Assembly: GCF_000420265.1 (NCBI RefSeq)
Contig: NZ_ATUP01000001.1
Location: forward strand, 2,294,001 to 2,358,000
Source of the DNA: Oceanicaulis alexandrii DSM 11625
GTDB lineage: Bacteria; Pseudomonadota; Alphaproteobacteria; Caulobacterales; Maricaulaceae
Direction: 5' to 3'
DNA: 64,000 nucleotides
Position 1 is the stretch's first letter; each line of letters opens with the position of its first letter. This document shows, one piece after another, positions 3,638 through 32,131 of this stretch. Position numbers and translations under genes: made by a program. The notes under the pieces are model-generated. The model was not told where the DNA came from. It searched no databases and saw only the letters and a list, made by a program, of their open reading frames with translations.

Positions 3638-5205
3638 CCTTTATGGATCTGATCTGGACCAGTGCCGCGAGTATTCCCGCCGCCCTGTCCGCCTGGCTCG
3701 CAGCGCGTGTGCTGGAGCCGCATCTGTCCCCGCGTCTGGGCGTGCGCCTGTGGCAGGCGGCCCGCCTGGCCGCCTTTGCGCCGATCCTGGTGGTGCTGGG
3801 GGCAGGCTTGATCCCTCAACAGCAGAGCGCCAACGCATCGAGCGTGCAGGTGATTCTGGGAGATGGAGCGCAGCAGACTGTGCCCGTCGCTGCGCCGCTA
3901 TTCCAGCCGATTCTCGACTTTGCCGAGCTGACTGTATCTTCCGTGCCTGCCGCGCTCCTGCCGCTCATTGCGGTTCTCTATCTGGCGGGTCTCACGATCA
4001 TGGCGGCGCGAGGCGTTTTGCAACGCGGCCAGATCCGCACCCTGATCCGCGCCTCGGTCGCCGACAATGGACGTTTGTCAGAACTCGCCCAACGCTGGCG
4101 GGCGCACCTTGGACTGCCGCAAACCCTGGCTCCGGTGCGAGTGGTGGATGCGGTGATCTCGCCTTTCGTGGTGGGCATCAAGCCGGTCATCCTGGCGCCG
4201 GATACGCTGGCAAAGCGTGACGATGCCGAAGCCGCCATCGCTCATGAGCTGATGCATATCAAGCGCGGCGATGAGCGGGACCGCCTGATCGGTGAGGCGC
4301 TGGCGGCGCTGATCTGGTTCAACCCGGTCTATCGCGCCATCGAGCGTCGTCTGGCCGCCGCGCGTGAGCTGGCCTGTGATGCGGATGTGCTGGACGCCCT
4401 GGGGCCCGACCAACGCCGCCCCTATGCCGAAGCGATTGCTGGCCTCGCGCCCATGCCGGCGGTGGCGACAGGGTTCCTGACCGATCTGGAGCGTTTGCGC
4501 AAACGCCGCGTTGAGGCCGCGCTCAGCCATACCGGCGCCAAGCCGCGCGCCCTGGCAGCCGTCTTGGCGGGCGCCGCGATCCTGCTGGCCGGGGCCCCGT
4601 CAGCGGCGCTCGCGGTGATGCTGAGCGGGCAGGAGGTGCAGGGCGCTGAAACCCGCGTGTTGAGCGAAGCTGTCGGCGAGCAAGTGCTGGCGGCGCAAGA
4701 GGCTGCGCAGGCCGAGGACCATCAGCGGGCTTTGGATATCTTGAATACGATCGAACCCCAGTCGCCGTATGACGCATTCATCGTCGAACAACTCAAAGCA
4801 CGGGCTCTGTTTGAGCTGGATGATTTCCCTGCTTCGGTAGAGGCCTTTGAAGCCGCTCTCGTCAGCGGCGGCGCTAACGAGGAAGAGCGGTACAGAGTCG
4901 AGACGGCGATTCTCCAGCTCAGCCTCGTCATGGAAGATTATGAGGCCGTGAGTCAGTCGCTGGAGCGGTTGCTTCAGTTTGATTTCCCGATGTCAGGTCA
5001 AATGAGCAGGACGGTCGCTCAAGCCTATTTGCAGTTGGATGAGTTCGAGGCTGCCCTGCCATACGCTGAATACGCGAGGCAGGTTCAGGATGGTGAAGAC
5101 CGGGACACGCTGCTGTTGTTGCAATACCTCTATGAGCAGACTGGTCGAGCTGACGACGCCACCGCCATGCGTCAGATCCGCTTGGCTCTGTTTCCCGAGA
5201 ACTGA
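3634..5205 (+). CDS. M56 family membrane metalloprotease (BlaR1-like) with TPR-like C-terminal region
   Basis: A 523-residue membrane protein. Hydrophobic segments in the first ~120 residues precede a cytosolic zinc-protease domain with the HExxH motif H204-E-L-M-H208 and the downstream RELACDADVL helix typical of M56 peptidases. A further membrane segment follows at about residues 305-325. The C-terminal ~190 residues are not a penicillin-binding sensor; they look like tetratricopeptide helices (AEDHQRALDIL, ALFELDDFPASVEAFEAAL, AYLQLDEFEAALPYAEYA). It is co-translated with the BlaI-type repressor. The signal sensed is unknown and is unlikely to be a beta-lactam acylating this protein. Confidence 0.85.
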   Translation: MTFMDLIWTSAASIPAALSAWLAARVLEPHLSPRLGVRLWQAARLAAFAPILVVLGAGLIPQQQSANASSVQVILGDGAQQTVPVAAPLFQPILDFAELTVSSVPAALLPLIAVLYLAGLTIMAARGVLQRGQIRTLIRASVADNGRLSELAQRWRAHLGLPQTLAPVRVVDAVISPFVVGIKPVILAPDTLAKRDDAEAAIAHELMHIKRGDERDRLIGEALAALIWFNPVYRAIERRLAAARELACDADVLDALGPDQRRPYAEAIAGLAPMPAVATGFLTDLERLRKRRVEAALSHTGAKPRALAAVLAGAAILLAGAPSAALAVMLSGQEVQGAETRVLSEAVGEQVLAAQEAAQAEDHQRALDILNTIEPQSPYDAFIVEQLKARALFELDDFPASVEAFEAALVSGGANEEERYRVETAILQLSLVMEDYEAVSQSLERLLQFDFPMSGQMSRTVAQAYLQLDEFEAALPYAEYARQVQDGEDRDTLLLLQYLYEQTGRADDATAMRQIRLALFPEN

Positions 5206-5231
5206 TCGTTCCACAGCTTCGGATAAACTTA

Positions 5232-5258
5232 CGGCCGGCGCATCGCGCCGGCCGTTTT
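5232..5258. terminator. Rho-independent terminator after the M56 protease gene
   Basis: A perfect 10-bp stem CGGCCGGCGC / GCGCCGGCCG with a 3-base ATC loop is followed by TTTT on the plus strand. It sits between the converging M56 protease and greA genes. A weaker run of T on the minus side could let it serve greA as well. Confidence 0.85.
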
Positions 5259-5283
5259 GTCTTCTGAGCCTTGAAGGCCGAGC

Positions 5284-5757
5284 CTATTTCCACTCGACCT
5301 TGAGGATCTCATAGCTTTTCACGCCACCGGGCGCGTTGACCTCGACCACATCGCCTTCTTCCTTGTTGATCATGGAGCGGGCGATCGGGGAGGAGAGCGA
5401 GATCTTGCCCGATTTCACATCGGCCTCGTCATCGCCGACGATCTTGTAGGTGCTCTCCTGCTCGGTGTCCTCGTCCACCACGGTGACGGTGGCGCCGAAC
5501 TTCACATGGCTGCCCGACATCTTGGAGATGTCGATGACCTGGGCGCGGGCGATCTTGTCCTCAAGCTCCTGCACGCGGCCTTCAATCCAGCCCTGCCGCT
5601 CCTTGGCGGCATGGTACTCGGCGTTCTCGGACAGGTCGCCATGTTCGCGCGCTTCGGAAATCGCGGCGATCACGGCAGGCCGTTCCACGCTCTTGAGGTG
5701 TCTGAGTTCTTCGTCGAGCGCTTTATGGCCCTCGGCGGTCATCGGAATTTTCTGCAT
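5284..5757 (-). CDS. greA: Transcription elongation factor GreA
   Basis: At 157 residues this is the usual GreA length. The N-terminal coiled coil ([43 protein letters not shown]) carries the acidic DLSENAEY tip, and the C-terminal FKBP-like domain contains [15 protein letters not shown] and [10 protein letters not shown]. The protein enters the RNA polymerase secondary channel and stimulates cleavage of backtracked transcripts. It lies 47 bases downstream of carB on the same strand, an order seen in other alphaproteobacteria, and may be cotranscribed with it. Confidence 0.97.
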
Positions 5758-5804
5758 GAATGTCCGGTCTCGTGATCAGTGCTCTGACGAACTGACAACT
5801 CTAC

Positions 5805-8800
5805 TCAGCCGCCAGACGGCCTATTACGATAGGATTGCAATGAGCGCGGTTCAAGCTGGCCTGCATCAATCGCCGCAATTGACTTCACTGCCGCCCGTGA
5901 AGCCGACGCTGTCGTATAGCATGGAATCTTCATTTCCAGCGCGGTTCGGCGGATCGAATAACTGTCGATCATGGAGCGCTGACCCTCAGTGGTGTTGAAC
6001 ACCAGCTGCACTTCGCCGTTCTTGATGGCGTCCACAATGTGAGGGCGTCCTTCAAAGACCTTGTTGATCGGCTGAACCGCGACGCCCGCCTCTTTCAAGG
6101 TCGCCGCCGTGCCGGAGGTCGCCAGCAGTTTGAAGCCCAGAGCGGTCAGACGATGACAGGATTCAATCATCATCGGCTTGTCTGATTCTTTCAGCGAGAC
6201 GAACACCGTGCCCGATTTGGGCAGGTTTACGCCCGCGCCCAGCTCGGCCTTGGCGAAGGCGGCTTCAAAGCGTTCGTCAATGCCCATGACTTCGCCGGTG
6301 GAGCGCATTTCCGGGCCGAGTATCGGATCGACGCCGGGGAAGCGCGAGAACGGCATCACCGCCTCTTTCACCGCGATATGGCGGCTGGGCATGGCCGGGG
6401 TCTCAAACTCTGACAATTTCGCGCCGGCCATCACCTTGGCGGCGATCTTGGCCACCGGCGCGCCGATGGTTTTGGCCACGAACGGCACGGTGCGGCTGGC
6501 GCGCGGGTTCACCTCGATGAGGTAGACCATGTTGTCCTTCACCGCGTACTGCACGTTCATCAGGCCCTTGACGCCGATGGCTTTCGCGAGGGCTTTCGTC
6601 TGGCGGCGCAATTCGCTGACGGTCTGGTCAGAGAGCGAGTAAGGCGGCAAGGAACAGGCGCTATCGCCCGAGTGCACGCCCGCTTCCTCGATATGCTCCA
6701 TGATGCCGGAAATCCAGACATCCTCGCCGTCGCAGACCGCGTCCACATCCACTTCGGAGGCGTCTGACAGATAGCGGTCGAGCAGCAGCGGCGCCTTGCC
6801 TGACACATGGACGGCTTCGCGAATATAGCGGCTGAAGCTCTCCACATCGCGCACGATCTCCATGCCGCGACCGCCGAGCACGTGCGACGGGCGCAGCACC
6901 AGCGGGAAGCCCAGCTCCTCGGCCATGACGCGCGCTTCAGCTTCATCATGGGCGATGGCGTTGGGCGGCTGTTTCAGCCCCAGATCATCGAGCAGCGCCT
7001 TGAAGCGCTCGCGGTCTTCGGCCAGGTCGATGGCGTCCGGCGCGGTGCCGAGGATCGGCACGCCGGCCGCTTCCAGCTCCGGCGCCAGTTTCAGCGGGGT
7101 CTGGCCGCCATACTGGACCACCACGCCCAGCAGCTCGCCTGACTGCATTTCGGTCTCGATCAGCTCCAGCACGTCTTCGGCGGTCAGCGGTTCGAAATAC
7201 AGCCGGTCCGCGGTGTCATAGTCGGTGGAGACAGTCTCGGGGTTGCAGTTCACCATGATGGATTCAATGCCCATCTCGGCGAAGGCGAAGGCCGCGTGAC
7301 AGCAGCAATAGTCAAACTCGATGCCCTGGCCGATCCGGTTCGGCCCGCCGCCCAGAATGATCGCCTTTTTGCGATCCGTCGGCGCAGCTTCGCACTCGCC
7401 GCCGCGCTCATAGGTCGAATACATGTACGGGGTGGGTGAGGCGAACTCGGCCGCGCAGGTGTCCACGCGCTTGTAGACGGGGCGCACTCCGAAGGTCTTG
7501 CGCAGCGCCTTCACCTCGGTCTCCTCGACCTTGGCGAGGGTTGCGAGGCGCTTGTCGGAGAAGCCCATGGATTTGAGCTTCAAAAGCTCATCGCCATTTT
7601 GCGGCAGGCCCAGCATGCGCACCTGTTCTTCGGCGTGCACGATGGCTTCGATCTGGCGCAGGAACCATGGCTCATACAGGCAGGCGCTCTGGATCCGCTC
7701 CACGGTCAGTCCTTCGCGGAAGGCCTGGGCGATCACCAACAGGCGATCCGGCGTGGGTTGCGACAGCGCCGCCAGCACCGCCTGATGGCGCGCGGCTTCG
7801 TCTTCAGCCTGATCGAGACCCTCGATCTCGATCTCGTCAAAGCCTGACAGGCCGGTTTCCAGGCTGCGCAGGGCTTTTTGCACGCTTTCGGCAAAGCTGC
7901 GGCCCATGGACATGGCTTCACCCACCGACTTCATGGAGGTGGTCAGCGTGGCTTTCGCGCCGGGATATTTCTCAAATGCGAAGCGCGGGATCTTGGTGAC
8001 CACATAATCGATGGTCGGCTCAAAGCTCGCCGGGGTCGCGCCGCCGGTGATGTCGTTGTCGATCTCATCCAGCGTGTAGCCGACCGCCAGCTTGGCCGCG
8101 ACCTTGGCGATGGGAAAGCCCGTGGCTTTGGACGCCAGCGCGGAAGAGCGCGACACGCGCGGGTTCATCTCGATGACCACCATGCGGCCATCCTTGGGGT
8201 TCACGGCGAACTGCACGTTCGAGCCGCCGGTCTCCACCCCGATCTCGCGCAGCACGGCGATCGAGGCCGAGCGCATGCGCTGATATTCCTTGTCGGTCAG
8301 GGTCAGGGCGGGCGCGACGGTGATGGAATCGCCGGTGTGAACGCCCATCGGGTCAATGTTTTCAATCGAGCAGATGATGATGCAGTTGTCCGCTTTGTCG
8401 CGGACCACTTCCATTTCGTACTCTTTCCAGCCCAGAACGCTTTCCTCGATCAGCACTTCTGTGACCGGGGAGTGATAGAGGCCCGAGGTGACGATCTCGC
8501 GGAACTCTTCAACATTGTAGGCGATGCCGCCGCCGGTGCCGCCCATGGTGAAAGAGGGGCGGATCACGGCCGGCAGGCCCAATTCCTCAAGCACGATCTC
8601 GGCTTCCGCCATCGTGTGCACGGTGCGCGAGATGGGGCTTTCAAGACCGATGGAGTCCATCGCCACGCGGAAGCGCTCGCGGTTTTCCGCCTTGTCGATG
8701 ACGTCGGCCTTGGCGCCGATCATCTCCACATTGAACAGCTCCAGCACGCCGCGCTTGTCGAGCTCCAGCGCGCAATTGAGCGCGGTCTGCCCGCCCATGG

Positions 8801-9065
8801 TGGGCAGCAGCGCGTCGGGGCGCTCCTTCTCGATCACCTTGGCGACCATTTCAGGCGTGATCGGCTCGATATAGGTGGCGTCGGCCAGATCAGGGTCGGT
8901 CATGATCGTGGCGGGGTTGGAGTTCACCAGGATCACCCGGTAGCCCTCTTCCTTCAGCGCTTTCACCGCCTGAACGCCCGAATAGTCAAACTCGCAGGCC
9001 TGGCCGATCACGATGGGACCGGCGCCGATGATCAGGATGGACTGGATGTCTGTGCGCTTGGGCAT
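5805..9065 (-). CDS. carB: Carbamoyl-phosphate synthase large subunit
   Basis: 1086 residues, the normal length for the large subunit that makes carbamoyl phosphate from bicarbonate, ATP and glutamine-derived ammonia for pyrimidine and arginine synthesis. It begins [17 protein letters not shown]. Two homologous ATP-grasp halves are visible ([10 protein letters not shown] in the first, LGGRGMEIV in the second), and a C-terminal MGS-like regulatory domain ([16 protein letters not shown]) follows. I chose the ATG at 9065, preceded by AGAGG; an upstream ATG would add eight unconserved residues. The small subunit carA lies 5.3 kb away, so the two are not one operon. Confidence 0.98.
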
Positions 9066-9328
9066 GGCCGGCCTCTTAAACTGTTGCACGCGCGCGCGAA
9101 AACGCAGCCTCTGACAAGCCCGAAACGGGGTGGAGGCGGCGTGCGGCGCTGATGATGTACGCTGAAACCCGTGCTTAGACCGGAATCGGTCGCTTGGCGA
9201 GAGGCGATTGCGGTCACGTCCAGTAAAGGACGCCGCACGCGCCTGCCCGATGCCCCAAATGAGAGAAAAGGCCTTGAATTCTCTCCCGTGCGGGGAAAGG
9301 TTGGAGGCTGAATCTCGGGGGGATCATC

Positions 9329-11278
9329 ATGACGCAAACCGTGCTGAGCGCGTGTCTGGCGCTGATCGGGGGGCTGTGCGGTCTGTCGATCCAGGCTCAC
9401 GCGCAGACTCTGGCGGACTTCGCGCAATTGCCTGAGGCCAGTCGTCCGATCGTATCGCCTGAGGGACGCTGGCTGGCCTATGAATGCCATATCGAGGTCC
9501 GGCCATCGGTGTGCGTGTTCGATCTGCAAACGAACCAGTTGGCGCACGCCATGCCGGCGCCGGAGAACGCCTGGCTGGGCCGGGCGTACTTCGCCTCCGA
9601 AGACTATCTGGTCGTGAATCTTTCCACCTATCTGACGCTGAGCACAATGAGTGGTTTGCGCGATTATGAAGTGTCGCGCGCCCTGTCGCTCAGCCTGGAA
9701 AGCGGCGAGGTCGTCATGCTGATGGAGCGCGGACAAGGCAGCACCAATGCGACCGATCTGGCGTCGCTTAATCTTGTCGATCCTGACACCATCCTCATCC
9801 AGATGACCTTTCTGAATGGGGCGGAGGGTAAGATCGGAACGCGTTTTGAAACCCGTGAGGGGTTTGAAAGCGGGCTGTTTCGCGTCGACCTTGCAACCGG
9901 CGATGACCGCAGGATTGACCGGTCCGATATCTTTGACCGGGTTCTGGACGCCCAGGGCGACGTGGTCGCTGAAATACACTTTGATCCGCTCAGCTATCTT
10001 TATGAGATCAAAGAGCCGGGCCGACGCGGCGCCGTCATTTACTCGGCCACCCATCAGAGCGATGCGCCTAGCGTGCTGGGCTTCATGGATGAAACCGGGT
10101 TCCTGGCATTCTTTCCGGGAGAGCGCGGCGGGTATCGCCGCATGGACCGGGTCAGCGGCGAAATCACGCGCCTTGAAAATATAACACTGGATACAGTCAG
10201 CGCGCCGATCTGGGATCGCCGCCAGAGATTGATGGGCTTTAACGGCGAGCGCGACGGCCAGAGCGCGCAGTTTTTCTTTGACGAGGATTTGGCGGCGGAT
10301 GCGGCGTCCCTGACGCGAGCCTTGGGCTCGCCGGTTCAGATCGTCTCCTTCAGTGATGACCGGGACCTGCTGGTTCTGGCCATTGAAGAACCCTCCCGTC
10401 CGCGCGAATTCTTTCTCTATCAACGGTCGGCGCGAAATGTCTGGCCCTTCTCCGCCAGCTATCCCAGCCTGGCTGGGACCGCATTGCCCGCGCGTCGGCT
10501 GTATCGCTACGCCGCCTCGGACGGGCTGGAGATTGAAGCGGTTTTGACCACGCCGGCGGGCTGGAGCGAAGGTGCAGAGGCGCTGCCGCTTGTTGTGTTG
10601 CCCCATGGCGGACCGGCGGCCCGTGATGGTCTGGAGTTTGACTGGTGGGCCCAGGCCTATGCGGCGCAGGGCTATCTGGTGCTGCAGCCCAATTTTCGCG
10701 GCTCGCTCGGCTATGGGCTGGATTTCCAGCGCGCGGGATATGGCGAGTTCGGCGACCTGATGGTTCAGGACATCATTGACGGCGCGCGCGCCGTACAGGC
10801 TGACGGGCTGGCGCAACCGGGGGGTTATTGCCTGGCGGGCGGATCCTATGGCGGGTATGCGGCGCTGCGCGCGGCCATCATGGCGCCCGATGAGGTCGCC
10901 TGCGTCGTGGCGTTCGCGCCCGTGACCAACCCGGTCAGTCTTATGGGGCGTGAGCGTCGCAATGGCTCATTCATCGCTTATCATTTCTGGGAGCAGTATA
11001 TGGGCGATCTGGTCTGGGATCAGGAGGCCTCTGATCGCGTTTCGATCCTGCGCAACGCCCAGACGCTGGACATGCCGATCCTGCTTTTGCACGGCGCCCA
11101 GGACAGCATCGTTCCCATCGAGGCGTCGGACGCCCTGCGCCGCCAGTTGCGCGGCGTGGAGGGCTTTGAATATGTGAGGCTTGAGGGGGAGAGCCATTTT
11201 CTGGATTTGCCCGGCTCTCGCATGACCCTGCTCAACCGGTCAGTGGCGATGTTTGATGAGGTGTTGCGCGCCGACTAG
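9329..11278 (+). CDS. S9 family serine peptidase (prolyl oligopeptidase / acylaminoacyl-peptidase type), secreted
   Basis: A 649-residue protein with a signal peptide (hydrophobic residues about 5-20, cleavage near AHAQ). A central region of weak beta-propeller repeats follows, then a C-terminal alpha/beta-hydrolase domain. The nucleophile is S506 in GGSYGG, the acid is D592 in GAQDSIVP and the base is H623 in GESHF. LPHGGP supplies the oxyanion hole. It probably cleaves peptides in the periplasm. Its TAG stop shares the bases CTAG with the stop of the convergent HD-domain gene. No transport partner is adjacent. Confidence 0.93.
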   Translation: MTQTVLSACLALIGGLCGLSIQAHAQTLADFAQLPEASRPIVSPEGRWLAYECHIEVRPSVCVFDLQTNQLAHAMPAPENAWLGRAYFASEDYLVVNLSTYLTLSTMSGLRDYEVSRALSLSLESGEVVMLMERGQGSTNATDLASLNLVDPDTILIQMTFLNGAEGKIGTRFETREGFESGLFRVDLATGDDRRIDRSDIFDRVLDAQGDVVAEIHFDPLSYLYEIKEPGRRGAVIYSATHQSDAPSVLGFMDETGFLAFFPGERGGYRRMDRVSGEITRLENITLDTVSAPIWDRRQRLMGFNGERDGQSAQFFFDEDLAADAASLTRALGSPVQIVSFSDDRDLLVLAIEEPSRPREFFLYQRSARNVWPFSASYPSLAGTALPARRLYRYAASDGLEIEAVLTTPAGWSEGAEALPLVVLPHGGPAARDGLEFDWWAQAYAAQGYLVLQPNFRGSLGYGLDFQRAGYGEFGDLMVQDIIDGARAVQADGLAQPGGYCLAGGSYGGYAALRAAIMAPDEVACVVAFAPVTNPVSLMGRERRNGSFIAYHFWEQYMGDLVWDQEASDRVSILRNAQTLDMPILLLHGAQDSIVPIEASDALRRQLRGVEGFEYVRLEGESHFLDLPGSRMTLLNRSVAMFDEVLRAD

Positions 11279-23469: not shown

Positions 23470-24318
23470 TTACCCGCAACAAGACCCGCTGCTGGGCGCA
23501 TGCGGGGAGGGTAATGTGAACGGATCGCCGGTTTCCTGACGCGGGGCGTCATTGGCGGGCGCGGGGCGCAGTTCGACCGTGGCGGAGACGAATTTGAGAC
23601 CGTCCAGTTTCTCGATCAGGGCGTCATCACTGATCGCCAGCGGGCGGTGATCGACGAGCTCCGGCGCGTCAAAGCCGGTGTCCTCGGCGATGGCGAGAAA
23701 ATCTGACCAGGCCAAAGCGCCAGCCAGGCATTCGCCATAGAGCACCGGGTCGGTGCGCAGGTCTTCCGGCACGGCGCGCTCGGCGTAGACATCCGCGAAA
23801 TGCATCACACCGTCAGGCTTCAGAAGATGACGCACGCCCGCAAACACCGCCGGTTTGTCAGTGGAGAGATTGATCACGCAGTTTGAGATGATCAGATCAA
23901 AGCTGCCCGCTTCAAGGTCGAGCTGGTCGAGCGCCTCGATATAGCCCTTGAGGAAGCGGGTGTTGGGTTTGGCATAGCCGAAGCGATCGGCGTGCCAGGT
24001 CTCATGCTCAAGCGCGACGGCAAGCTGGTTGTCGGTCATGTCGACGCCGACGACTTCGCCGGTTTCGCCCACCAATTGGGCCAGCAGGAACACGTCGCGC
24101 CCCGTGCCGCAGCCCAGATCCAGCACGCGCTTTCCTGTGATGTCCTCGGGCGCGATCAGGCCACAGCCATAGTATTTGTTCGCCACGTCGGGATGAATGT
24201 TTGTCAGCGCGTCGCGGATATGGGGTTCGGGCGCGGAGATCTCGCAGCAGGCGTCTGATTTCAGATCGCCGCTCGATTGCAGCACGTCGCCATAATAATC
24301 CCGAACCTGTTCGCGCAT
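23470..24318 (-). CDS. arsM: Arsenite S-adenosylmethionine methyltransferase (ArsM-like)
   Basis: 282 residues. It starts REQVRDYYGDVLQSSGDLK, then shows DACCEI (C24, C25), YYGCGL (C52), the SAM-binding RVLDLGCGTGRD and VVGVDMTDNQL, ISNCVINLS and YGECLAGAL. These cysteines and motifs are the hallmark of ArsM enzymes, which methylate As(III). The C-terminus ends in a Cys-Cys pair (GSCCG), also common in the family. No arsR, arsB or arsC is nearby. The remaining uncertainty is whether the substrate is arsenite or a related metalloid. Confidence 0.88.
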   Translation of the reverse strand: MREQVRDYYGDVLQSSGDLKSDACCEISAPEPHIRDALTNIHPDVANKYYGCGLIAPEDITGKRVLDLGCGTGRDVFLLAQLVGETGEVVGVDMTDNQLAVALEHETWHADRFGYAKPNTRFLKGYIEALDQLDLEAGSFDLIISNCVINLSTDKPAVFAGVRHLLKPDGVMHFADVYAERAVPEDLRTDPVLYGECLAGALAWSDFLAIAEDTGFDAPELVDHRPLAISDDALIEKLDGLKFVSATVELRPAPANDAPRQETGDPFTLPSPHAPSSGSCCG

Positions 24319-24840: not shown

Positions 24841-25760
24841 CTCGCCGCTTTCTTCCGGCGCAGCAGACGGCGGAAGCCGATGACGACCCCTGAGATCACC
24901 GGCACTGCGATCACCAGCCAGGGCAGGGCGCCGGCGAGGAACAGGATCAGGCTGGCGACGGAATTGGCGAACACCTCGCCCATTTCCTTGAACGCGCGCC
25001 CGATGGGATTGAAGGTTTCAGGCTCCACCACCTGACGCTCGGCCTGATAGTTCAGGGTCAGCATGGAGGTGTTCACCCGCTGGCGCAGGGCGGCCAGAAC
25101 GCTCGCCTGGGCGTCGAGATTGGCCTGCACGTTCGCGAGCTCCCGCTCCACCGCCAGCAGATCACTGAGATCGCCGTCGCGGGTCTCCAGCAGCTGTTGC
25201 AGCCGGTCGCGCAAGGTGGTCTGGGCCGCAACGCGCGCGGCAGTGTCCACGATGCGCGTGGTCAGATCCTCGACCGAGGTCTGGTCTGACAGCACCTGGC
25301 CGCCCAGCTCTTCGGTCTCGCCTTCAAGCCCGGCGCGGAACTCAACGATCCAGTCCGGCGCGGCGCGCAGCTGCAGATAGGCGCTGGGGCGCGGCCCGTC
25401 GGCATTGTTCACCTGCGCGCGGATCACCTGGCAGGTCGCGGGACCCGCGGTCTGACACGCCGCCACATGGCTGGCCTGTGTGGCCGCCAGAACCTCGCCC
25501 GGCAGCTCGAGGCTGGTTTGATAGGTGTAGGCCAGCAAGGGCGCGGAGACGTCCTGCGGCGCGGTCTGAGCGGCGCCGGAGCCTGCGACCGTCACGGCCT
25601 CTGACCGGGCGCGCATGGGGGCGGGGGCCGCCTGCGGGGCCTCCATCATCGCCATGTCATCGACCATATAGCCTTCGGAATCGGTGGTGTAGCTCGATTG
25701 TTGATCGCAGCCGACCAGCGCGGCGCTGGCGATCAGTATCAGTCCTGTGGTCCGAACCAT
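24837..25760 (-). CDS. DUF4349 lipoprotein with C-terminal membrane segment
   Basis: 307 residues. A lipoprotein signal (LILIASAALVGC, lipobox cysteine at residue 18) is followed by a Met/Ala/Pro-rich linker. The DUF4349 core has a long coiled coil (SVEDLTTRIVDTAARVAAQTTLRDRL...DLLAVERELANVQANLDAQASVLAALRQRV) and a C-terminal transmembrane helix (about residues 272-295) with a basic RRLLRRKK tail. It should span from an acylated N-terminus to the inner membrane. Function is unknown; homologues are envelope proteins of unassigned role. Confidence 0.85.
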   Translation of the reverse strand: MVRTTGLILIASAALVGCDQQSSYTTDSEGYMVDDMAMMEAPQAAPAPMRARSEAVTVAGSGAAQTAPQDVSAPLLAYTYQTSLELPGEVLAATQASHVAACQTAGPATCQVIRAQVNNADGPRPSAYLQLRAAPDWIVEFRAGLEGETEELGGQVLSDQTSVEDLTTRIVDTAARVAAQTTLRDRLQQLLETRDGDLSDLLAVERELANVQANLDAQASVLAALRQRVNTSMLTLNYQAERQVVEPETFNPIGRAFKEMGEVFANSVASLILFLAGALPWLVIAVPVISGVVIGFRRLLRRKKAAS

Positions 25761-25984
25761 GTGGTCTCTCCCCTCAATTCGCCCGTGTGAACCTTATCAT
25801 GCGCAGAGCCTAGCTGAACCGGAGTTGAAAGGGCGCGGCGATTTCAAGGCGATTGCGAGGCGGCGCCGGCGGCGCGCTCGCTCAGCGCCTGCGTCAGTTC
25901 GGCGGGTGCGCCCGCGCCGCTATTTGCTAGTCTGGCGCAAAGCGCGGCGCTCTGATTCGCGCCGCCTCGCCAAGGAGCTCGCCC

Positions 25985-26281
25985 ATGACCACCGCCCCGC
26001 TCGGATCCAAAGCCAATCCCAGCAAACACGATTGCCTGCCCGATCTCGCCGATGACGAGCCCTATTTCGTCATTCGCGCCGACGACCCGCTGGCCAACGC
26101 GCTTGTGGAGCTGCACGCCTATATCGGCGCGGGCCAGGCGGGCGCCGCCCATAACAAGCTGGCGGAAATCATGGAACTGACCCGCGAACAACCGCCGCGC
26201 CCCGCCGGCAGCCCCAAATACCGCGAAACCTTCGCCATCTCCCTGTCCATGGAAGCCTGGCGCGGCCAGCACCCGAAATAA
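25985..26281 (+). CDS. Small unknown protein
   Basis: 98 residues that I do not recognise. No signal peptide or membrane span; a helical core (DPLANALVELHAYIGAGQAGAAHNKLAEIMELTREQPP) is flanked by polar ends. AAGGAG sits eight bases before the ATG and codon use matches the neighbours, so it is probably a real gene. It stands alone between a divergent lipoprotein gene and the repeat-rich gap before the restriction-modification island. Confidence 0.65.
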   Translation: MTTAPLGSKANPSKHDCLPDLADDEPYFVIRADDPLANALVELHAYIGAGQAGAAHNKLAEIMELTREQPPRPAGSPKYRETFAISLSMEAWRGQHPK

Positions 26282-26311
26282 AGGCCGGAGCGGCGCGCGG
26301 AGTGTCCCGAT

Positions 26312-26343
26312 GGGAGTCATGAGAGTCTCATCGGGGTGACTCC
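26312..26343. repeat. Nested inverted repeat downstream of the small unknown gene
   Basis: An outer arm pair GGAGTC / GACTCC encloses a 13-base odd palindrome ATGAGA-G-TCTCAT (26319-26331). There is no T-run, so it is not a canonical terminator. It could be a transcript-stabilising hairpin or a protein site; function is unknown. Confidence 0.35.
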
Positions 26344-26486
26344 TATGACGACTACCATGACTCTCACGCCTCTGATGGCGGCGGAACGGCGTCTGTGAAC
26401 CCTGAGAAAGAACGCCGCGGAGTCTAGCGCCGTCCAAGGCGAGGGGGATTGGGGGCGTCTGAGGCTCTCGCCTGTCCCCCGTTTTT

Positions 26487-26572
26487 TCCTCTGTCCCGGA
26501 CTTGGTCCGGGACCCAGAGATCATCCAGCGCCGCGCATCCGGCTCTGGACCCCGCCTTCGCGGGGACAGAGA
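26487..26572 (+). repeat. Dispersed palindromic repeat, family A, copy 1
   Basis: The core GACCCAGAGATCATC...GCGCC...CATCCGGCTCTGGA, enclosed by GC-rich inverted arms ending in GGGACAGAG, recurs at 48545-48629 and inverted at 54475-54556. This REP-like element can form two hairpins joined by a conserved linker. It lies between the small unknown gene and the restriction island. Confidence 0.75.
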
Positions 26573-26589
26573 CTAAGAGTCTCTTCCTT

Positions 26590-26680
26590 CGGTCCTCGGA
26601 CTTGATCCGGGGACCCATACCCAGCCGAGCCGCCGCATGGACCTCCGGGTCAATCCCGAAGGCCGAGAGGCTGGGGGCAA
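26590..26680. repeat. Second palindromic intergenic element beside family A
   Basis: Arms around CTTCGG...GGACTTGATCCGGGGACCC and CTCCGGGTCAATCCCGAAG are imperfect inverted complements. It follows the family A copy directly and ends shortly before the sequence turns AT-rich at about 26715. The remaining ~120 bases up to the nuclease gene hold no gene that I can see. Confidence 0.45.
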
Positions 26681-26799
26681 TTTCTCCACCATTCCCACCT
26701 TGGACAAGCTGGAGAGGCTAGAGATACGTTCAGTGAAAGTCTTCTATAATCAAAAATTAGTGAGGATCTAATGTGGCAGAAATTGATCAAATATTGGAT

Positions 26800-28305
26800 T
26801 TATTCGACCAACGCGCGGCGTTGCGGCAGCTTCCATTCTAGAATATCTCGTGCTTGCAAACCCATCTCACGAAACAAACCAGTAACACCTTCATCAAAAT
26901 AAATTTGAAGGCCGAATTTATCAATTAAAATAGCTTGGTGACTACTAGTCTCTGATAGCTGTTTCGCGTGGAGATGAACCGTCTTTGTAAATTCACCTGT
27001 TGTAATAATTAATATAACTTGTGCTTTGTAAAGCACCGCCATTCCAATTTCTTTTGCCAATGCAGATACAGGCACCTTAGCCATATTCTTGCATTGTACC
27101 ATCCAGCGGTGAAAATGGGTGTCAGCGCCCTCAGCAATAAGATCAACCTCCGCACCATTGTTTTCTGATCCGCGCTCTCGGAAGGCTACAGGCGTAAGCC
27201 CGAGTTCATACAAAATACGTACCGAGAGGGTTTCAAGCGCAAGACCTTTAACGCCCGTATCGTCACTGCTAAGCTCCTCAATAATTTGAGTTATCGGTCG
27301 CGACAAATGGTTTCGCACTTCTCCAGGAATTCCCGCGAGGTCTGCAAGGCCTAAATATTCTGGATCAAGTGACACCAACTTTTCTGTTACACTTACTGTT
27401 CCTGAGGCTCCTCCTCTGCCACGTCCTTTGCTTCTCCCCCCTTTGGTTTCAGAATGCGTTATCCAACCATCCATAACTAAAGGATTGATTATAGCTTTCC
27501 TTAAATCGTCTGTTCGTCCAAATACAGTAGGGTGCTGGGCTTGGCAGAGGGCACGAAGGTCTTTTACGAATACATCTCGCACGCCATTAATTTCAAAGTC
27601 ACGTCGGAGCGTTGAAGCAAACACTTTTTGCCGGTCAGAAAGCGCAATCGCATCATCCGCGTCATCGACGGAAGTTCCGATAATTGCCTTTAGTTCATCG
27701 TTATTGATATTGTATCCACTCTTCGGGAGAACATTAGCCTTACGCAGCCATGACAATAAGATCAGGTGGTTTTTTGAGCTAGTTGAAATAGGGCCCCCTG
27801 CCTTTGTCACAAATCCATAGCGATTCAACTCCTCCGCGAGGGACGTTTTATTGATGGCTCTGCCGCCCTTCTCCATTGACCGGATTATGCGAAGAATCTC
27901 GGTGCCATTGAGAGTTAAGAGGATGTGTTTGGCGAATGAACGATTAGCTTCAAATTCCGAAGGTAATGAAAGAAGGTGAGCTCCAATATCTGTAAGGTCC
28001 TCAGTCTTTTCGTCATAAATTTTAAAGCTATCCATCCCAATTAAGACATTGCTAGCAAGCTGCTTTTGTTGAAGCCGTCGGAGCTGAGGGTCTGACTGTT
28101 TTTCAGCAGCATTGTAAAAATAATGGCTTCGTATTGCCTCGACTTGCGCATCCCGTCCCGAATTCTCGCTAACAATCCTCAGTACAATCTGTAGACTAAC
28201 TGGATTGTTTTTAGGAGCCCCAGGGCTAAATTCATTTGCAATAGGAAGAATTAGCGAAGGCTTACCCGTCCCGCCTGATGAATCTATGCGACCTTCGTTT
28301 CCCAC
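26800..28305 (-). CDS. Restriction endonuclease with C-terminal Mrr-like nuclease domain
   Basis: 501 residues with a GTG start (GGAG/AGGA upstream), overlapping the end of the second methyltransferase gene by 22 bases. The C-terminal ~150 residues form a PD-(D/E)xK nuclease of the Mrr type: ALETLSVRILYELGL, GAEVDLIAEG (D388), MVQCKN (Q404, K406) and ILIITTGEFTKTVHLHAKQL. The first ~300 residues resemble stacked helix-turn-helix modules (TEILRIIRSMEKGGRAINKTSLAEELNRYG; DVFVKDLRALCQAQHPTVFGRTDDLRKAI) with a Gly/Arg/Lys-rich linker (about residues 292-303). Operon position with two methyltransferases indicates the cleavage subunit of a restriction-modification system; the recognition site is unknown. 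AT-rich codon use shows it is acquired. Confidence 0.8.
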   Translation of the reverse strand: MGNEGRIDSSGGTGKPSLILPIANEFSPGAPKNNPVSLQIVLRIVSENSGRDAQVEAIRSHYFYNAAEKQSDPQLRRLQQKQLASNVLIGMDSFKIYDEKTEDLTDIGAHLLSLPSEFEANRSFAKHILLTLNGTEILRIIRSMEKGGRAINKTSLAEELNRYGFVTKAGGPISTSSKNHLILLSWLRKANVLPKSGYNINNDELKAIIGTSVDDADDAIALSDRQKVFASTLRRDFEINGVRDVFVKDLRALCQAQHPTVFGRTDDLRKAIINPLVMDGWITHSETKGGRSKGRGRGGASGTVSVTEKLVSLDPEYLGLADLAGIPGEVRNHLSRPITQIIEELSSDDTGVKGLALETLSVRILYELGLTPVAFRERGSENNGAEVDLIAEGADTHFHRWMVQCKNMAKVPVSALAKEIGMAVLYKAQVILIITTGEFTKTVHLHAKQLSETSSHQAILIDKFGLQIYFDEGVTGLFREMGLQARDILEWKLPQRRALVE

Positions 28306-29369
28306 TTTCCTATTCTCCGAATTTGCGTTGCTAGTGCCTTTCCAAGTGCTTCAGCTAATACTGGTGGGACTGCATTTCCAAGTTGGCGCCATTTTTTATT
28401 TACATCTCCAACTAGAAAATAGTCGTCAGGGAACGTCTGCAGCCGCTTCACCTCCTCAATTCGAAGGATCCTATTTCTCCAGTGGAGAGGTCCCATATTA
28501 TTGGTACGTTTGGCCTGAATAGTCCAAGATGGGAGACTTGGGCTTAGCTTTAAAAGGTAAGTCCAATAGCGAGAGCGCCATTTAAACTGGGGGTTTGGAT
28601 AACCGCGCTCAGCAGTAAAATAAAGGTAGTTCTCACCAGGGGGTAATTCTTCCAAGAGGTGCTTGTAACGGCCACCAGCTGTATGACCCCAGCTATCAGC
28701 AGCCTCGTCGGTATCGATGTCATTCAAAACATCACCTGCCGTCGCCCAAGGCTTCAATTCTGGATTGTTCGGTTCTTTATCATGCGTTGGAGTAGGAAAT
28801 TGAAAGGCAGCATCACCGAGTAGCCCTACAATAAAACATCGCTCTCGGATCTGAGGCACGCCATAATTGGCCGCATTCAAGACTGCCCAGGTCACCTGAT
28901 ACCCAAGTGCCTGGGCCCTTTCAATTACAGAGTCCATTGCCGGGCGGTTATTGCGGTAAGTCAGCCCTTTGACATTCTCGATCACGAATGCCAACGGTTT
29001 TACGATTGAAAGCGCGGTGAGAACTGAGCGGAAGCTTCCCGCGCCAGTGGGGTCATCAAAGCCTTTTGGTAGATCAGTGCGCCAAAAGCGGGATTTAGAG
29101 AAAGGGGGACAGGGCGGCCCGGCAGCCAGCAGACTGATAGGAGCATCGAACCGCTCAAGCCAAGTCCGCATGTCAGCCTCTGTCCAACTGATGAGATCTT
29201 CGCATCGTACTTCAGCGTCGGGAAAGTTTGATTTGAAGCTCTCTACGCAGTCTTTATCGTTGTCCACTGCTCCAACAGTAGTAAAGCCTGCGCGTTCAAG
29301 ACCATAGTCAAGTCCACCACATCCGCTGAACATAGAAATTGATCGTAGTGCTACGTTAGCGTTAGTCAT
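28284..29369 (-). CDS. DNA (cytosine-5-)-methyltransferase, second of a pair
   Basis: 361 residues. Motif I SMFSGCGGLDYGLERAGF, catalytic loop GPPCPPFSKS (C87), ENV in VIENVKGL, QIRERCF and the final RQLGNAVPP are all present. The target-recognition region between them (GGRYKHLLEELPPGENY, PNPQFKWRSRYW, LLKLSPSLPSWT, GPLHWRNR) is closely similar to that of the upstream methyltransferase. The ATG overlaps the preceding stop (ATGA), with AGAGG seven bases upstream. The catalytic loop has PCPP where PCQP is usual. It presumably protects one strand of the host sites of the adjacent nuclease. Confidence 0.93.
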   Translation of the reverse strand: MTNANVALRSISMFSGCGGLDYGLERAGFTTVGAVDNDKDCVESFKSNFPDAEVRCEDLISWTEADMRTWLERFDAPISLLAAGPPCPPFSKSRFWRTDLPKGFDDPTGAGSFRSVLTALSIVKPLAFVIENVKGLTYRNNRPAMDSVIERAQALGYQVTWAVLNAANYGVPQIRERCFIVGLLGDAAFQFPTPTHDKEPNNPELKPWATAGDVLNDIDTDEAADSWGHTAGGRYKHLLEELPPGENYLYFTAERGYPNPQFKWRSRYWTYLLKLSPSLPSWTIQAKRTNNMGPLHWRNRILRIEEVKRLQTFPDDYFLVGDVNKKWRQLGNAVPPVLAEALGKALATQIRRIGKWETKVA

Positions 29370-30466
29370 GCGATTGCCTCTAGGACCTTAACAATTACTG
29401 GAGCTGCAAGCTTAGGTGGAACAGCGTTGCCGATTTGTCGCACGCGGTCGCGACGACTTCCTGCAAACCGGTATCCGTCAGGAAAACTTTGGATGGCCGC
29501 GAGCTCTGGGGTTCTTAGCCTACGTGTATCCCAATGAAATGGGCCCGTCCAAGGACCTGGTGAAGCCGCTACGGTCCAAGACAGTTTTTCTGGGTGCAGC
29601 TTAAGTAGAAAGTTCCAAAAACGGCTTTCCGCTTCGAATGATGGGTTGGGGTGCCCAGCCCATGCGGTAAGTGCTTTATAGTTCCAGCCGGGGGGCACGT
29701 CAGCCAGATGATGCGCGTAACGACCTGAGATTAACTCCTCACGTTCAAAAAATTCATCTCCAGAATATGCGGCGATTGCCTCTCCAACGCTGACAAAAGG
29801 CTTCAGGAAAATCGAGGGTTCCTCTGAGTGGGTAATCTCCGGAATTTCCGGGGTTTGTGACCGGGCTCCATAAATGAATACACGCTGGCGTTTCTGTGGG
29901 ACCCCAAACTCAGCACTGTTACCTTTAAATATTGCTACGTTCATTCCGGCGTCCTTCATTACATCTATAAAGAATTCGGCCGTCTCTTTGTTGCGTGGGT
30001 GAAAAATGCTAGCCACGTTTTCAAGGACAAATCCGTCAGCTTTCGCTTCGATAACAAGACGCGCGAACTCCAACAGAAGATTTCGTCGTTCATCTGGGCG
30101 AGGCTCGGTTATTGAAGGGGGCCTTTTGTAAACTGAATCATCACCTCTATAGAACGCCAAGCGAAGCTTCAGGTCTTCGCCGGGATCAGTCCAGTAGGCA
30201 TTTTTCGAAAATGGCTGACAGGGAGCGCCTCCGACCACCAGAAGTGGATCTGACTTATCTAAGCCAGCCATTTCTCGCATTTGTTGTCCGCTAAAATCAA
30301 GAACGCTGCCCTCATGTACCGAGTGGCTAGAATCAGCGTGATTCATCCGTAACGTTTCGCATGCTTTACGGTCGATTTCTACCGAAAGGCGAAGGTCCGC
30401 GCCCGCGATTTTACTAGCAATACCAAATCCACCGGCACCGGCAAAAAGATCAATCACTGGCAGCAA
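29366..30466 (-). CDS. DNA (cytosine-5-)-methyltransferase, first of a pair
   Basis: 366 residues from a TTG start at 30466, preceded at eight bases by AGGGG, which gives LPVIDLFAGAGGFGIAS, the usual opening of the family. An in-frame TTG at 30529 would add 21 residues without a good site. Catalytic GGAPCQPFSK (C83), ENV in LENVASI, QKRQRVF and RQIGNAVPPKLA are present. Its target-recognition segment (GRYAHHLADVPPGWNY, PNPSFEAESRFW, LLKLHPEKLSWT, GPFHWDTRRL) parallels that of the next gene, so the two arose by duplication or act on related half-sites. It is the promoter-proximal gene of the restriction operon. Confidence 0.93.
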   Translation of the reverse strand: MLPVIDLFAGAGGFGIASKIAGADLRLSVEIDRKACETLRMNHADSSHSVHEGSVLDFSGQQMREMAGLDKSDPLLVVGGAPCQPFSKNAYWTDPGEDLKLRLAFYRGDDSVYKRPPSITEPRPDERRNLLLEFARLVIEAKADGFVLENVASIFHPRNKETAEFFIDVMKDAGMNVAIFKGNSAEFGVPQKRQRVFIYGARSQTPEIPEITHSEEPSIFLKPFVSVGEAIAAYSGDEFFEREELISGRYAHHLADVPPGWNYKALTAWAGHPNPSFEAESRFWNFLLKLHPEKLSWTVAASPGPWTGPFHWDTRRLRTPELAAIQSFPDGYRFAGSRRDRVRQIGNAVPPKLAAPVIVKVLEAIA

Positions 30467-30608
30467 GGCGTCGCCCCTAGGAAGTCTAAGAAGTTGGTAT
30501 TTTGGGTAGCTAACTTGGTAAGCAAGCAAAATTCTGGATAATCAAGGCTATTCGATTCGCAACAAAATCCGAAGCTTTAGGAACAACAGCTGGTCACCCA
30601 CAGATGCC

Positions 30609-30637
30609 ACAATGCGTTCCTATTATGTTCGCGTCAA
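30609..30637 (-). promoter_or_regulatory. Candidate promoter of the restriction-modification operon
   Basis: On the minus strand TTGACG (30632-30637) is followed after 17 bases by CATTGT (30609-30614). The -35 box is good and the -10 box poor. It lies about 140 bases upstream of the methyltransferase start in the AT-rich flank, which otherwise holds no gene. Weak evidence. Confidence 0.3.
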
Positions 30638-30639
30638 GG

Positions 30640-30715
30640 CTTGCTGCAGGCGTCTCTGTGATCAGAGCAGAGTGTATCCGGTCGATCCCGGATCGCTACG
30701 CGTCCGGGATGACGG
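30640..30715 (-). repeat. Dispersed palindromic repeat, family C, copy 1
   Basis: The stretch from TTGCTGCAGGCGTCT to GATCCCGGATCGCT-CGCGTCCGGGATGAC matches, inverted, the sequence at 48651-48730. The end forms a hairpin of CCCGGATCG / CGTCCGGG type. It marks the right edge of the AT-rich island. Confidence 0.65.
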
Positions 30716-30743
30716 GTATTGAGAGAACGGAAAGAAGCTGTAT

Positions 30744-30843
30744 TCCCGGGCGAGCATCGCGAAGACCCGGGACCTCTCTCCGTTTAAAGCGCCAAGTTCT
30801 GATGGAGCCCCCGGCTCAGCGCTGCGCTTGGCCGGGGTTTCAG
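30744..30843 (-). repeat. Dispersed palindromic repeat, family B, copy 1
   Basis: Read on the minus strand it is CTGAAACCCCGGCCAAGCGC...GCCGGGGGCTCCATCAGA...GGTCCCGGGTC...GCTCGCCCGGGAAT. It matches the copies at 34141-34245 and 54582-54688 apart from scattered changes. Each end is a separate GC-rich hairpin. The rest of the gap up to panD holds no gene that I can see. Confidence 0.75.
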
Positions 30844-30983
30844 TATGGGGGAAGAGGAAGCCCCCCTTCACCAACGCCCCCTTAATCCCCACATGACAAA
30901 TATGTCAGTGCGAAACGGGTGTTTTTTCTGTCGCAATCGAGTATACCGCAGTGCAACAGACTCATTTTCATGACGAGGGCGGC

Positions 30984-31370
30984 ATGCAACTCACCATGAT
31001 GAAGACCAAGCTTCACCGCGCCGCGGTGACGCAAGCGGACCTTCACTATGAAGGCTCCATCTCCATCGACCAGGACCTGCTGGAAGCGGCGGGCATTCTG
31101 GTCAATGAGCAGGTGGATGTCCTGAACATCAACAATGGCGAACGGTTCACCACCTACGCCATCTCCGCCCCGCGCGGCTCCAAGATGTTCGGCATAAATG
31201 GCGCCGCGGCGCGGCTGGCCCAGCCCGGCGACCGCATCATCGTGGTGGCCTATGCCGGCATGGCGGCCGAAGAGGCGCGCCAGTTCGTGCCCACCGTGGT
31301 GCTGCTGGACGAGAACAATGACGTGGTCAGCGTCGAGGAAGGCTCCGGCCGCAAGCTCGACGCCGCCTAG
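30984..31370 (+). CDS. panD: Aspartate 1-decarboxylase
   Basis: 128 residues. It makes beta-alanine from aspartate for pantothenate and CoA synthesis. The self-processing site is G24-S25 in [10 protein letters not shown]; cleavage converts Ser25 to the pyruvoyl cofactor. The start [12 protein letters not shown] aligns residue for residue with the E. coli start and places the serine at position 25, and GAGGG lies just upstream. R in NNGERFTTY and NGAAARL are conserved. The gene is monocistronic, ending at a strong terminator. Confidence 0.97.
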
Positions 31371-31390
31371 TTCAGGCCGGGTGAAACACG

Positions 31391-31427
31391 AAAAAAAAGC
31401 CCCGCCGGGATCCGGCGGGGCTTTTTT
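31391..31427. terminator. Bidirectional terminator between panD and cheZ
   Basis: Eight A, then the perfect stem GCCCCGCCGG / CCGGCGGGGC around a GAT loop, then six T. The A-run serves the minus-strand cheZ and the T-run serves panD, so one hairpin can end both convergent transcripts. Confidence 0.93.
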
Positions 31428-31462
31428 CATGCGCCCCAAAGAGCGCATGGTATTTGAAGGAT

Positions 31463-32131
31463 TTAATCAAACAATGCGTCGATGGAATCCTGGTCCATGG
31501 CCAGAAGGTCATCGACATTGTCCTGACCCACTTCGGGTCCGCCAATGGCCGGGCCGTTGAGGTGGAGCTTGGCTTTGCGCTCTTCCTCGGCCTTTTCATT
31601 AGCGGTGGCCTCGGCGTCGTTCACGCCCATGGTCTGGGCGAAGCGCGCCACCCGCTCTTCGATATGCTTGAGCGAGCTGACCACCTTGGACACGCGTTGA
31701 CCGGTGAGATCCTGGAAGGAGCACGCCTCGATGATTTTGGTCATCGAATCGGAGACCTCCATCTTGTAGGCGTCCAGATCTTCCGTTTCGCTGCACATGA
31801 GCGTTTCAGCTTCGCTCATGATGGTTTCCGTCGCCCGTTCGGTGTCGGCGATCAGCGCTTCCAGTTCGGCGCCCGCGCCCGGAAGCCGGGAATCGCGGAT
31901 GTCGTTGGGGCGCAGATGCGCGATTTCATCACGGGTTTTCGCGATGTAATCGGCGATGGAATTGAATTCGGCGTGGATCGACTTGTCCAGGGACCCGAAA
32001 AACATCTGCATGGTGTCGGTGAGCTGCTGCGCCATGCGCAACACCTCGATCAGCTGTACGTTTTCGAGATCGGAAACTTTCACCGACTCCAGAGACTGGC
32101 GTACCCGTGCGGCGACTTCTGCGGCAGGCAT
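31463..32131 (-). CDS. cheZ: Chemotaxis protein phosphatase CheZ-like
   Basis: 222 residues, mostly helical. The active-site signature ACSFQDLTGQRVSKV carries the catalytic glutamine of CheZ phosphatases, and the C-terminus VDDLLAMDQDSIDALFD resembles the CheY-binding tail. It would dephosphorylate CheY-P at the flagellar motor or sensor pole. It follows the cheY-like gene on the same strand after 93 bases. No cheA, cheW or receptor gene lies in the window. Confidence 0.9.
   Translation of the reverse strand: MPAAEVAARVRQSLESVKVSDLENVQLIEVLRMAQQLTDTMQMFFGSLDKSIHAEFNSIADYIAKTRDEIAHLRPNDIRDSRLPGAGAELEALIADTERATETIMSEAETLMCSETEDLDAYKMEVSDSMTKIIEACSFQDLTGQRVSKVVSSLKHIEERVARFAQTMGVNDAEATANEKAEEERKAKLHLNGPAIGGPEVGQDNVDDLLAMDQDSIDALFD

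Follow-up and report, generated by a model that had tools for sequence, protein, structure and literature searches.

An AT-rich island of Oceanicaulis alexandrii encodes a probable Type II restriction-modification system joining a C5 methyltransferase pair to an Mrr-type nuclease

How can a bacterium keep a nuclease of the Mrr type directly behind two cytosine methyltransferases of its own? The question is raised by a stretch of 64,000 nucleotides from Oceanicaulis alexandrii DSM 11625 (contig NZ_ATUP01000001.1, positions 2,294,001 to 2,358,000; the window throughout), in which an AT-rich island holds two C5-cytosine methyltransferase genes, M2 and M1, followed by the gene for a nuclease, R. 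An earlier note on this DNA observed that Mrr-type enzymes are more often methylation-dependent, and that such an enzyme in this position would be self-destructive. Comparison with other genomes and with viral contigs suggests that the operon is instead a functional two-methyltransferase Type II restriction-modification system, recently acquired and placed in a defence hotspot, and we put the probability of this reading at about 0.8.

All three genes are open frames on the minus strand, in the order M2 (29366..30466), M1 (28284..29369) and R (26800..28305), with overlaps of 4 bp between M2 and M1 and 22 bp between M1 and R. M2 (366 amino acids (aa), from a TTG at 30466) and M1 (361 aa) match the methyltransferase family PF00145 at 1.9e-44 and 3.9e-58 and are 32% identical to each other. 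R (501 aa, GTG start) carries the PD-(D/E)XK nuclease domain Mrr_cat (PF04471, 7.4e-9) at its C-terminal end, residues 355-450, with no other Pfam model up to an E of 0.1. The overlapping genes in one direction, the two C5 methyltransferases and the 501-residue Mrr-like nuclease with D388, Q404 and K406 are as the earlier note had them, and nothing placed the 26800-28305 protein in a non-nuclease family. The longest frame of M2 begins at a TTG further upstream (30529-29366, 387 aa), but the start at 30466 is more likely, because it has AGGGG upstream and gives a length equal to that of the 366-aa protein of Ancylobacter described below. The absence of a control protein was also borne out, as none is seen in the island, where overlapping genes leave non-coding DNA only at the margins, about 100 and 175 bp; a control-protein gene in the operon was rejected for want of room. 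Within the presumed leader and promoter region (30467..30641, minus strand) promoter-like matches are at chance level, with four found against 4.5 expected over 26500-30900; promoter and terminator scans were both at chance, and Rfam gave nothing at its thresholds over 25500-32000.

The island (26700..30641) has a guanine-plus-cytosine (GC) content of 0.478, against 0.637 for the remainder of the window, and the scan of GC and codon usage that had been called for gave a third-position GC of 0.39-0.46 in M2, M1 and R against 0.75-0.84 in four neighbouring genes. It is missing from the equivalent place in one sister genome, G482 (locus L185), whose alignment ends at window position 26699 (L185 3495) and restarts at 30642 (L185 3522) with 26 bases between, in agreement with the AT-rich limits of 26715 and 30640 first proposed. 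After the restart the first 73 bp belong to a dispersed repeat, present also elsewhere in the genome; the window's copy, at the right edge of the island (30642..30714, plus strand), lacks its left end, unlike that of G482. After these 73 bp G482 has about 1.2 kb not present in the window, and its match picks up again at 30862. Since the island is absent from one sister's place, has a foreign composition and recurs as the same cassette in a distant genus, the evidence supports the proposal that a complete restriction-modification operon was acquired laterally.

In a second sister, G493 (L186), the slot between the matches to window positions 26679 and 30815 is filled by 3.4 kb of 47.8% GC that has no similarity to the window island and encodes Gabija GajA and GajB (L186 505-3640; PADLOC 1.4e-204 and 1.5e-163). 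Relatives of GajA and GajB, 49% and 44% identical to those of G493, are found in Ancylobacter too, some 2.3 kb downstream of its R (L002 9856-12970). The slot is a defence hotspot, because a sister has Gabija in the same place and relatives of the two Gabija genes also stand near the Ancylobacter operon. No direct repeat of more than 8 bp was found to link the stretches compared at the two island edges. Repeats with further copies in the window and the genome lie at both edges (26507-26699, 30642-30714 and 30736-30843). In G482, low-GC DNA beside the slot holds a 253-aa frame (L185 3869-4630) with no PADLOC match, perhaps an acquired gene.

With the single sequence as query, R was found in none of the 136 other genomes of the family and in none of 397 others sampled from the phylum; an alignment query found it in five of the 384 other class members sampled and in none of 296 others sampled from the order of Ancylobacter. 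Ancylobacter sp. Lp-2 (L002) holds M2, M1 and R in the window's order and with the same 4-bp and 22-bp overlaps, its proteins being 85%, 77% and 71% identical, respectively, to those of the window. The cassette evidently travels as a unit, and in both genera methyltransferases and endonuclease are encoded together, as the definition of a Type II system has it.

Relatives of R occupy 14 distinct loci once four duplicates are dropped (L001 and L022, which equal the window, L024, which equals L002, and L012, which equals L009). The C5 pair is present at three (the window, L002 and L013), PvuII-type methyltransferases, in the stretch examined, at ten, and at the last (L014, where R is found with an McrB-like gene) the contig ends before the upstream neighbours, leaving any methyltransferases out of view. 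Counted among the ten are L011, whose PvuII-type frame is a fragment of 213 aa, and L004, which has three such genes. The methyltransferases of Roseivivax and Haloplanus match the structure of the N4-methylcytosine (m4C) enzyme PvuII (PDB 1boo) at 1e-107 and 2e-80, and those at the remaining eight loci were assigned to this type by similarity to the first 1boo-matching enzyme. At these loci (L003, L009, L018, L020 and others) the nuclease is of the same family and has the same Mrr_cat domain, matching R over nearly its full length, N-terminal part included, at 25-32% identity in the five compared; the methyltransferase, m4C by homology, differs from the two C5 enzymes of the window. An MTaX1-HNH gene adjoins in three of the ten (L003, L009 and L011), L018-L021 and L023 being only about 4.4 kb long.

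Because its relatives adjoin methyltransferases of two kinds, R is best read as a Type II nuclease for unmodified sites; from the methyltransferases seen at 13 of the 14 loci we infer that it would cut DNA lacking the modification. The methylation dependence suspected at first is not supported, as no methyl-reader family was found in R by Pfam, NCBIfam or PADLOC searches, and the concern over self-destruction is answered, since the context of the family fits an ordinary Type II nuclease with a cognate methyltransferase. In the mechanism that we propose, M2 and M1 would protect the host by methylating cytosines wherever a single recognition site occurs in its DNA, probably with one enzyme for each strand or each version of that site. 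R would recognize the same site when unmethylated, probably through its N-terminal part, and cut with its C-terminal domain, so that incoming phage or plasmid DNA would be cleaved. Being translated last, from within the end of M1, R could be kept below the methyltransferases in amount by the 22-bp overlap, with no need of a control protein.

The methyltransferase pair is also found with other effectors. M2 precedes M1 at all six loci where both are seen (the window, L002, L013, L197, L199 and L203). In L013 (positions 3870-10766; IMGVR_UViG_2788499988_000004) the order is M2, M1, R, an McrB-like GTPase with an MTaX1 domain and an RE_LlaJI protein, so that a single methyltransferase pair is followed by two restriction effectors. 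In the viral contigs L197, L199 and L203 a pair 76-82% identical to that of L013 is followed by McrB-like and LlaJI-like genes, and R is absent. As the pair precedes R, McrB/LlaJI-like genes or both, depending on the locus, the effectors have been exchanged behind it. Matches to the McrB of L013 differ in reach: those from L197, L199 and L203 take in the MTaX1 part (residues 69-181), and those from 16 loci whose methyltransferases are different or out of view begin only beyond it; of these 16, L196 starts at a contig end and of L206 just the final 139 residues are present. In the tree three M1 proteins group together (92/88), and three M2 proteins lie on a 100/100 branch with those of L005 and L015. 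The modification module is thus part of an interchangeable set, the C5 pair occurring also with McrB/LlaJI effectors and the R family also with PvuII-type methyltransferases.

Some further features of these loci were seen. L199 and L203 have an MTaX1-like protein on the opposite strand as well, and small frames that look like helix-turn-helix (HTH) proteins by eye lie upstream of the pair in L197, L199 and L203. On the Paracoccus plasmid pNSM5TCa (L005 5031-8432) phage terminase and portal genes enclose a relative of M2 and, after it, an MTaX1-HNH gene and a gene for an Eco57I-type methyltransferase. The top PADLOC match of M1 is DruM2, and both M1 and M2 match many C5 methyltransferase models; membership of Druantia was rejected, the matches being to C5 models only and the island holding no other Druantia genes.

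Among characterized systems, HgaI and MhoVI (GACGC) resemble the window in gene content: each combines two C5 methyltransferases, encoded separately, with a single nuclease. Upstream of the MhoVI genes there is one for an XRE regulator, of which no counterpart is seen in the window operon. An excerpt of PMC12376442 reports that both strands of an asymmetric site are methylated in MhoVI-positive strains. In LlaJI the asymmetric site GACGC is served by two C5 methyltransferases (excerpt of PMC1459862), and a pair of type IIS methyltransferases is described as accompanying the LlaI/BsuMI/LlaJI family (excerpt of PMC2614495). Systems of this family share with the window a C5 methyltransferase pair ahead of the restriction genes, but the window has neither their McrB-like GTPase nor an RE_LlaJI protein, its only nuclease in the operon being the Mrr_cat protein; PF09563 (RE_LlaJI) was not found in the host genome in a search with Bacillus subtilis as positive control. 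By analogy with MhoVI and LlaJI the view that two methyltransferases imply a non-palindromic site is plausible. LlaJI-like and HgaI-like systems are known; for the union of an Mrr_cat nuclease from the R family with two C5 enzymes we found no description in the literature searched, REBASE lying outside the comparison.

What, then, might the site be? Taking M1 residues 233-301 as the target-recognition region (our own choice of limits), conservation between the window and L013 is higher in this region than in the rest of the protein, at 0.71 versus 0.41 for M1 and 0.67 versus 0.40 for M2, and M1 and M2 themselves share 0.49 of it against 0.28 elsewhere. The region resembles those of methyltransferases beside RE_SacI (PF09566; E 2.8e-35 in L007 and 1.2e-21 in L168), at 0.48 and 0.53, compared with 0.20 for an Eco47II-linked enzyme; the M1 and M2 regions align to the SacI-linked ones with one 14-residue insertion (L007) and one gap (L168). 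An Amycolatopsis methyltransferase with no recognized partner (L006) is closer still, at 0.62. The SacI-linked loci differ from the window in their nuclease, which is RE_SacI rather than Mrr_cat, and in the single methyltransferase seen in the stretch examined. M.SacI is a C5 enzyme for GAGCTC (excerpt of PMC4725820) and M.PvuII has the site CAGCTG (excerpt of PMC2614495). As the PvuII and SacI lines both contain AGCT, we propose, at roughly even odds, a site that contains it; the particular form GAGCT/AGCTC, asymmetric, is a more tentative suggestion.

Depletion of candidate words was measured as observed/expected ratios in genome samples of 800 kb (the host), 400 kb (G490, Ancylobacter and G770) and 200 kb (G491, G494, G837 and G857), covering three of the five other class genomes with R (G583 and G574 were left out); for Ancylobacter no closely related genomes served as controls. 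Only hexamers with at least 10 expected sites in every sample were kept, among them 40 of the 64 palindromes. CAGCTG, the hexamer predicted beforehand for genomes with R and a PvuII-type methyltransferase, stood at 0.29, 0.66 and 0.50 in the three such genomes sampled, against 0.72-0.93 in five others, and was the only one of the 40 to be lower in these three than in every one of the five, where about 0.7 would be expected by chance. Around four loci with the pair and McrB (66 kb), none of the 512 pentamers was as deficient as GAGCT/AGCTC when set beside 13 further LlaJI-type loci: it had 29 copies against 62.1 expected, compared with 304 against 318.5 in the 13. The latter group leaves out L190, which matches as L189, and L196 and L206, in which no methyltransferase is seen. 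Taken singly, the GAGCT deficit ranked 11 (L187), 2 (L197), 45 (L199) and 1 (L203) of about 500 pentamers. It ranked 6 of 467 in L014, which has R and McrB, and 15 of 508 and 14 of 498 in two fresh contig parts (4 of 508 when pooled, 27 copies against 45.4); in seven viral loci without McrB the ranks were 96 to 487. The pooled viral contig parts L214 and L215 are also strongly deficient in GGACC (45 against 113) and CGACG (16 against 54). Strong avoidance of CACGTG in G857 (L157-L166; observed/expected 0.00) and of AACGTT in G494 (L097-L106; 0.19) suggests other restriction systems there.

Several observations weigh against this reading of the operon and its site. GAGCT shows no depletion in the host (1.08; three sisters 1.12-1.16) or in Ancylobacter (1.06), which could be explained by recent acquisition and equally by a wrong site, and CAGCTG stands about alike in the host (0.72), Ancylobacter (0.77) and the sisters (0.76-0.93). 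Among the 13 LlaJI-type loci with other methyltransferases (ranks 9, 362, 16, 31, 448, 45, 446, 8, 508, 91, 25, 185 and 203) a marked GAGCT deficit is found without this pair, at ranks 8, 9 and 16, and L196 and L206, whose methyltransferases are out of view, rank 1 and 4. The deficit is suggestive, therefore, but not specific to the pair. The need for two methyltransferases in this branch is likewise unexplained, the PvuII-type enzyme being single at nine of the ten loci of that kind. Finally, the lowest palindrome in both C5-pair genomes was, unprompted, CCCGGG (0.38 and 0.39), the only such hexamer of the 40 where 1.4 would be expected by chance; in the comparison of the host with its sisters, too, no z among 1809 hexamers is lower (-3.1, unremarkable in so large a set).

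A site without an AGCT core, be it CCCGGG or one not yet guessed, is accordingly a strong contender, falling not far short of an even bet. The two C5-pair genomes give no consistent AGCT signal, GAGCTC being low in the host (0.60; sisters 0.73-0.86) but at 0.88 in Ancylobacter, and a low ratio for AAGCTT being common to almost every sample. Set against this are the alignment of the M1 and M2 recognition regions with the SacI-linked ones and the company that relatives of R keep with PvuII-type enzymes, and two methyltransferases would be needless for a single palindrome. One copy of CAGCTG lies in the M2 leader of the window, and neither it nor GAGCTC occurs in the leaders of the six other M2 genes compared; a conserved recognition site in the operon leader was rejected, CAGCTG being found in none of the six.

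If the site does centre on AGCT, it is conceivable, though we consider it doubtful, that four kinds of module reading the same word are being reshuffled, namely the C5 pair, the PvuII-type m4C methyltransferase, the Mrr_cat family and the MTaX1-bearing effectors (HNH proteins and McrB), the window having the C5 pair and the Mrr_cat nuclease alone, with an asymmetric GAGCT/AGCTC site and a separate methyltransferase for each strand. Protection from a single nuclease lineage would then come from m4C in one system and from C5-methylcytosine (m5C) in another. With a shared site, these families would form a series for studying the tolerance of a single nuclease scaffold to two protective chemistries and would offer material on the shift between palindromic and asymmetric sites; recognition sites could be predicted from exchanged partners, and new enzymes around AGCT might be found. 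Should the shared site fail, the loci would still be a clear case of varied effectors behind one pair, in a slot that a sister uses for Gabija.

Residues E386, D388, Q404, C405 and K406 are invariant in seven of seven aligned R proteins; when Haloplanus is included, D388 is kept there and E386, Q404 and K406 are lost. NCBIfam and PHROGs gave no match for R or the relatives tested, the Protein Data Bank (PDB) gave no credible match by sequence (best E 0.73), and PADLOC returned only PDC-M58A, at 0.014, for the R of the window, PDC-M58A at 0.00026 for that of L013 and nothing for that of L009. An AlphaFold model built from seven sequences (pLDDT 77.7, pTM 0.66) shows the nuclease domain at the C-terminal end, preceded by a mostly helical N-terminal part. 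Its top PDB fold match is FokI (E 2.7e-4, TM 0.23, 11% identity), which likewise has an N-terminal recognition part and a C-terminal PD-(D/E)XK domain, the likeness of the N-terminal parts being one of layout only; the second is the modification-dependent MspJI (E 1.2e-2). Neither model-based match says much about recognition by R.

That the modification module works beside a dead or silent nuclease, as an orphan pair or the remnant of an addiction module, is improbable. A recently moved cassette may well be unregulated, given that no control gene is seen and promoter-like matches are at chance; the R of a Haloplanus plasmid (L004 5980-7506) has HCS in place of the catalytic QCK, and in the G770 match an in-frame stop precedes the open frame. 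In the window, however, the three genes are open and the catalytic residues of R are intact and conserved. The Haloplanus R, perhaps a nuclease that has lost its activity, is neighboured by its three PvuII-type methyltransferases and a BREX-5 pglZ. Least probable of all, and rejected on the overlap of R with M1 in two genera and on the methyltransferases at 13 of the 14 loci of its relatives (the other ending at a contig edge), is that R is a Type IV nuclease lying by chance beside an independent pair: it has the Mrr_cat domain of that class, and Mrr itself and MspJI are counted among modification-dependent enzymes (excerpt of PMC4081073), but Type IV enzymes lack the cognate methyltransferase that is present here, R has no recognizable methyl-reader, and Type ISP enzymes hold an Mrr-family nuclease and act on unmodified sites (excerpt of PMC4666363).

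Elsewhere in the window, the frame at 23470-24318 resembles, by eye and with no search made, an arsenite methyltransferase.

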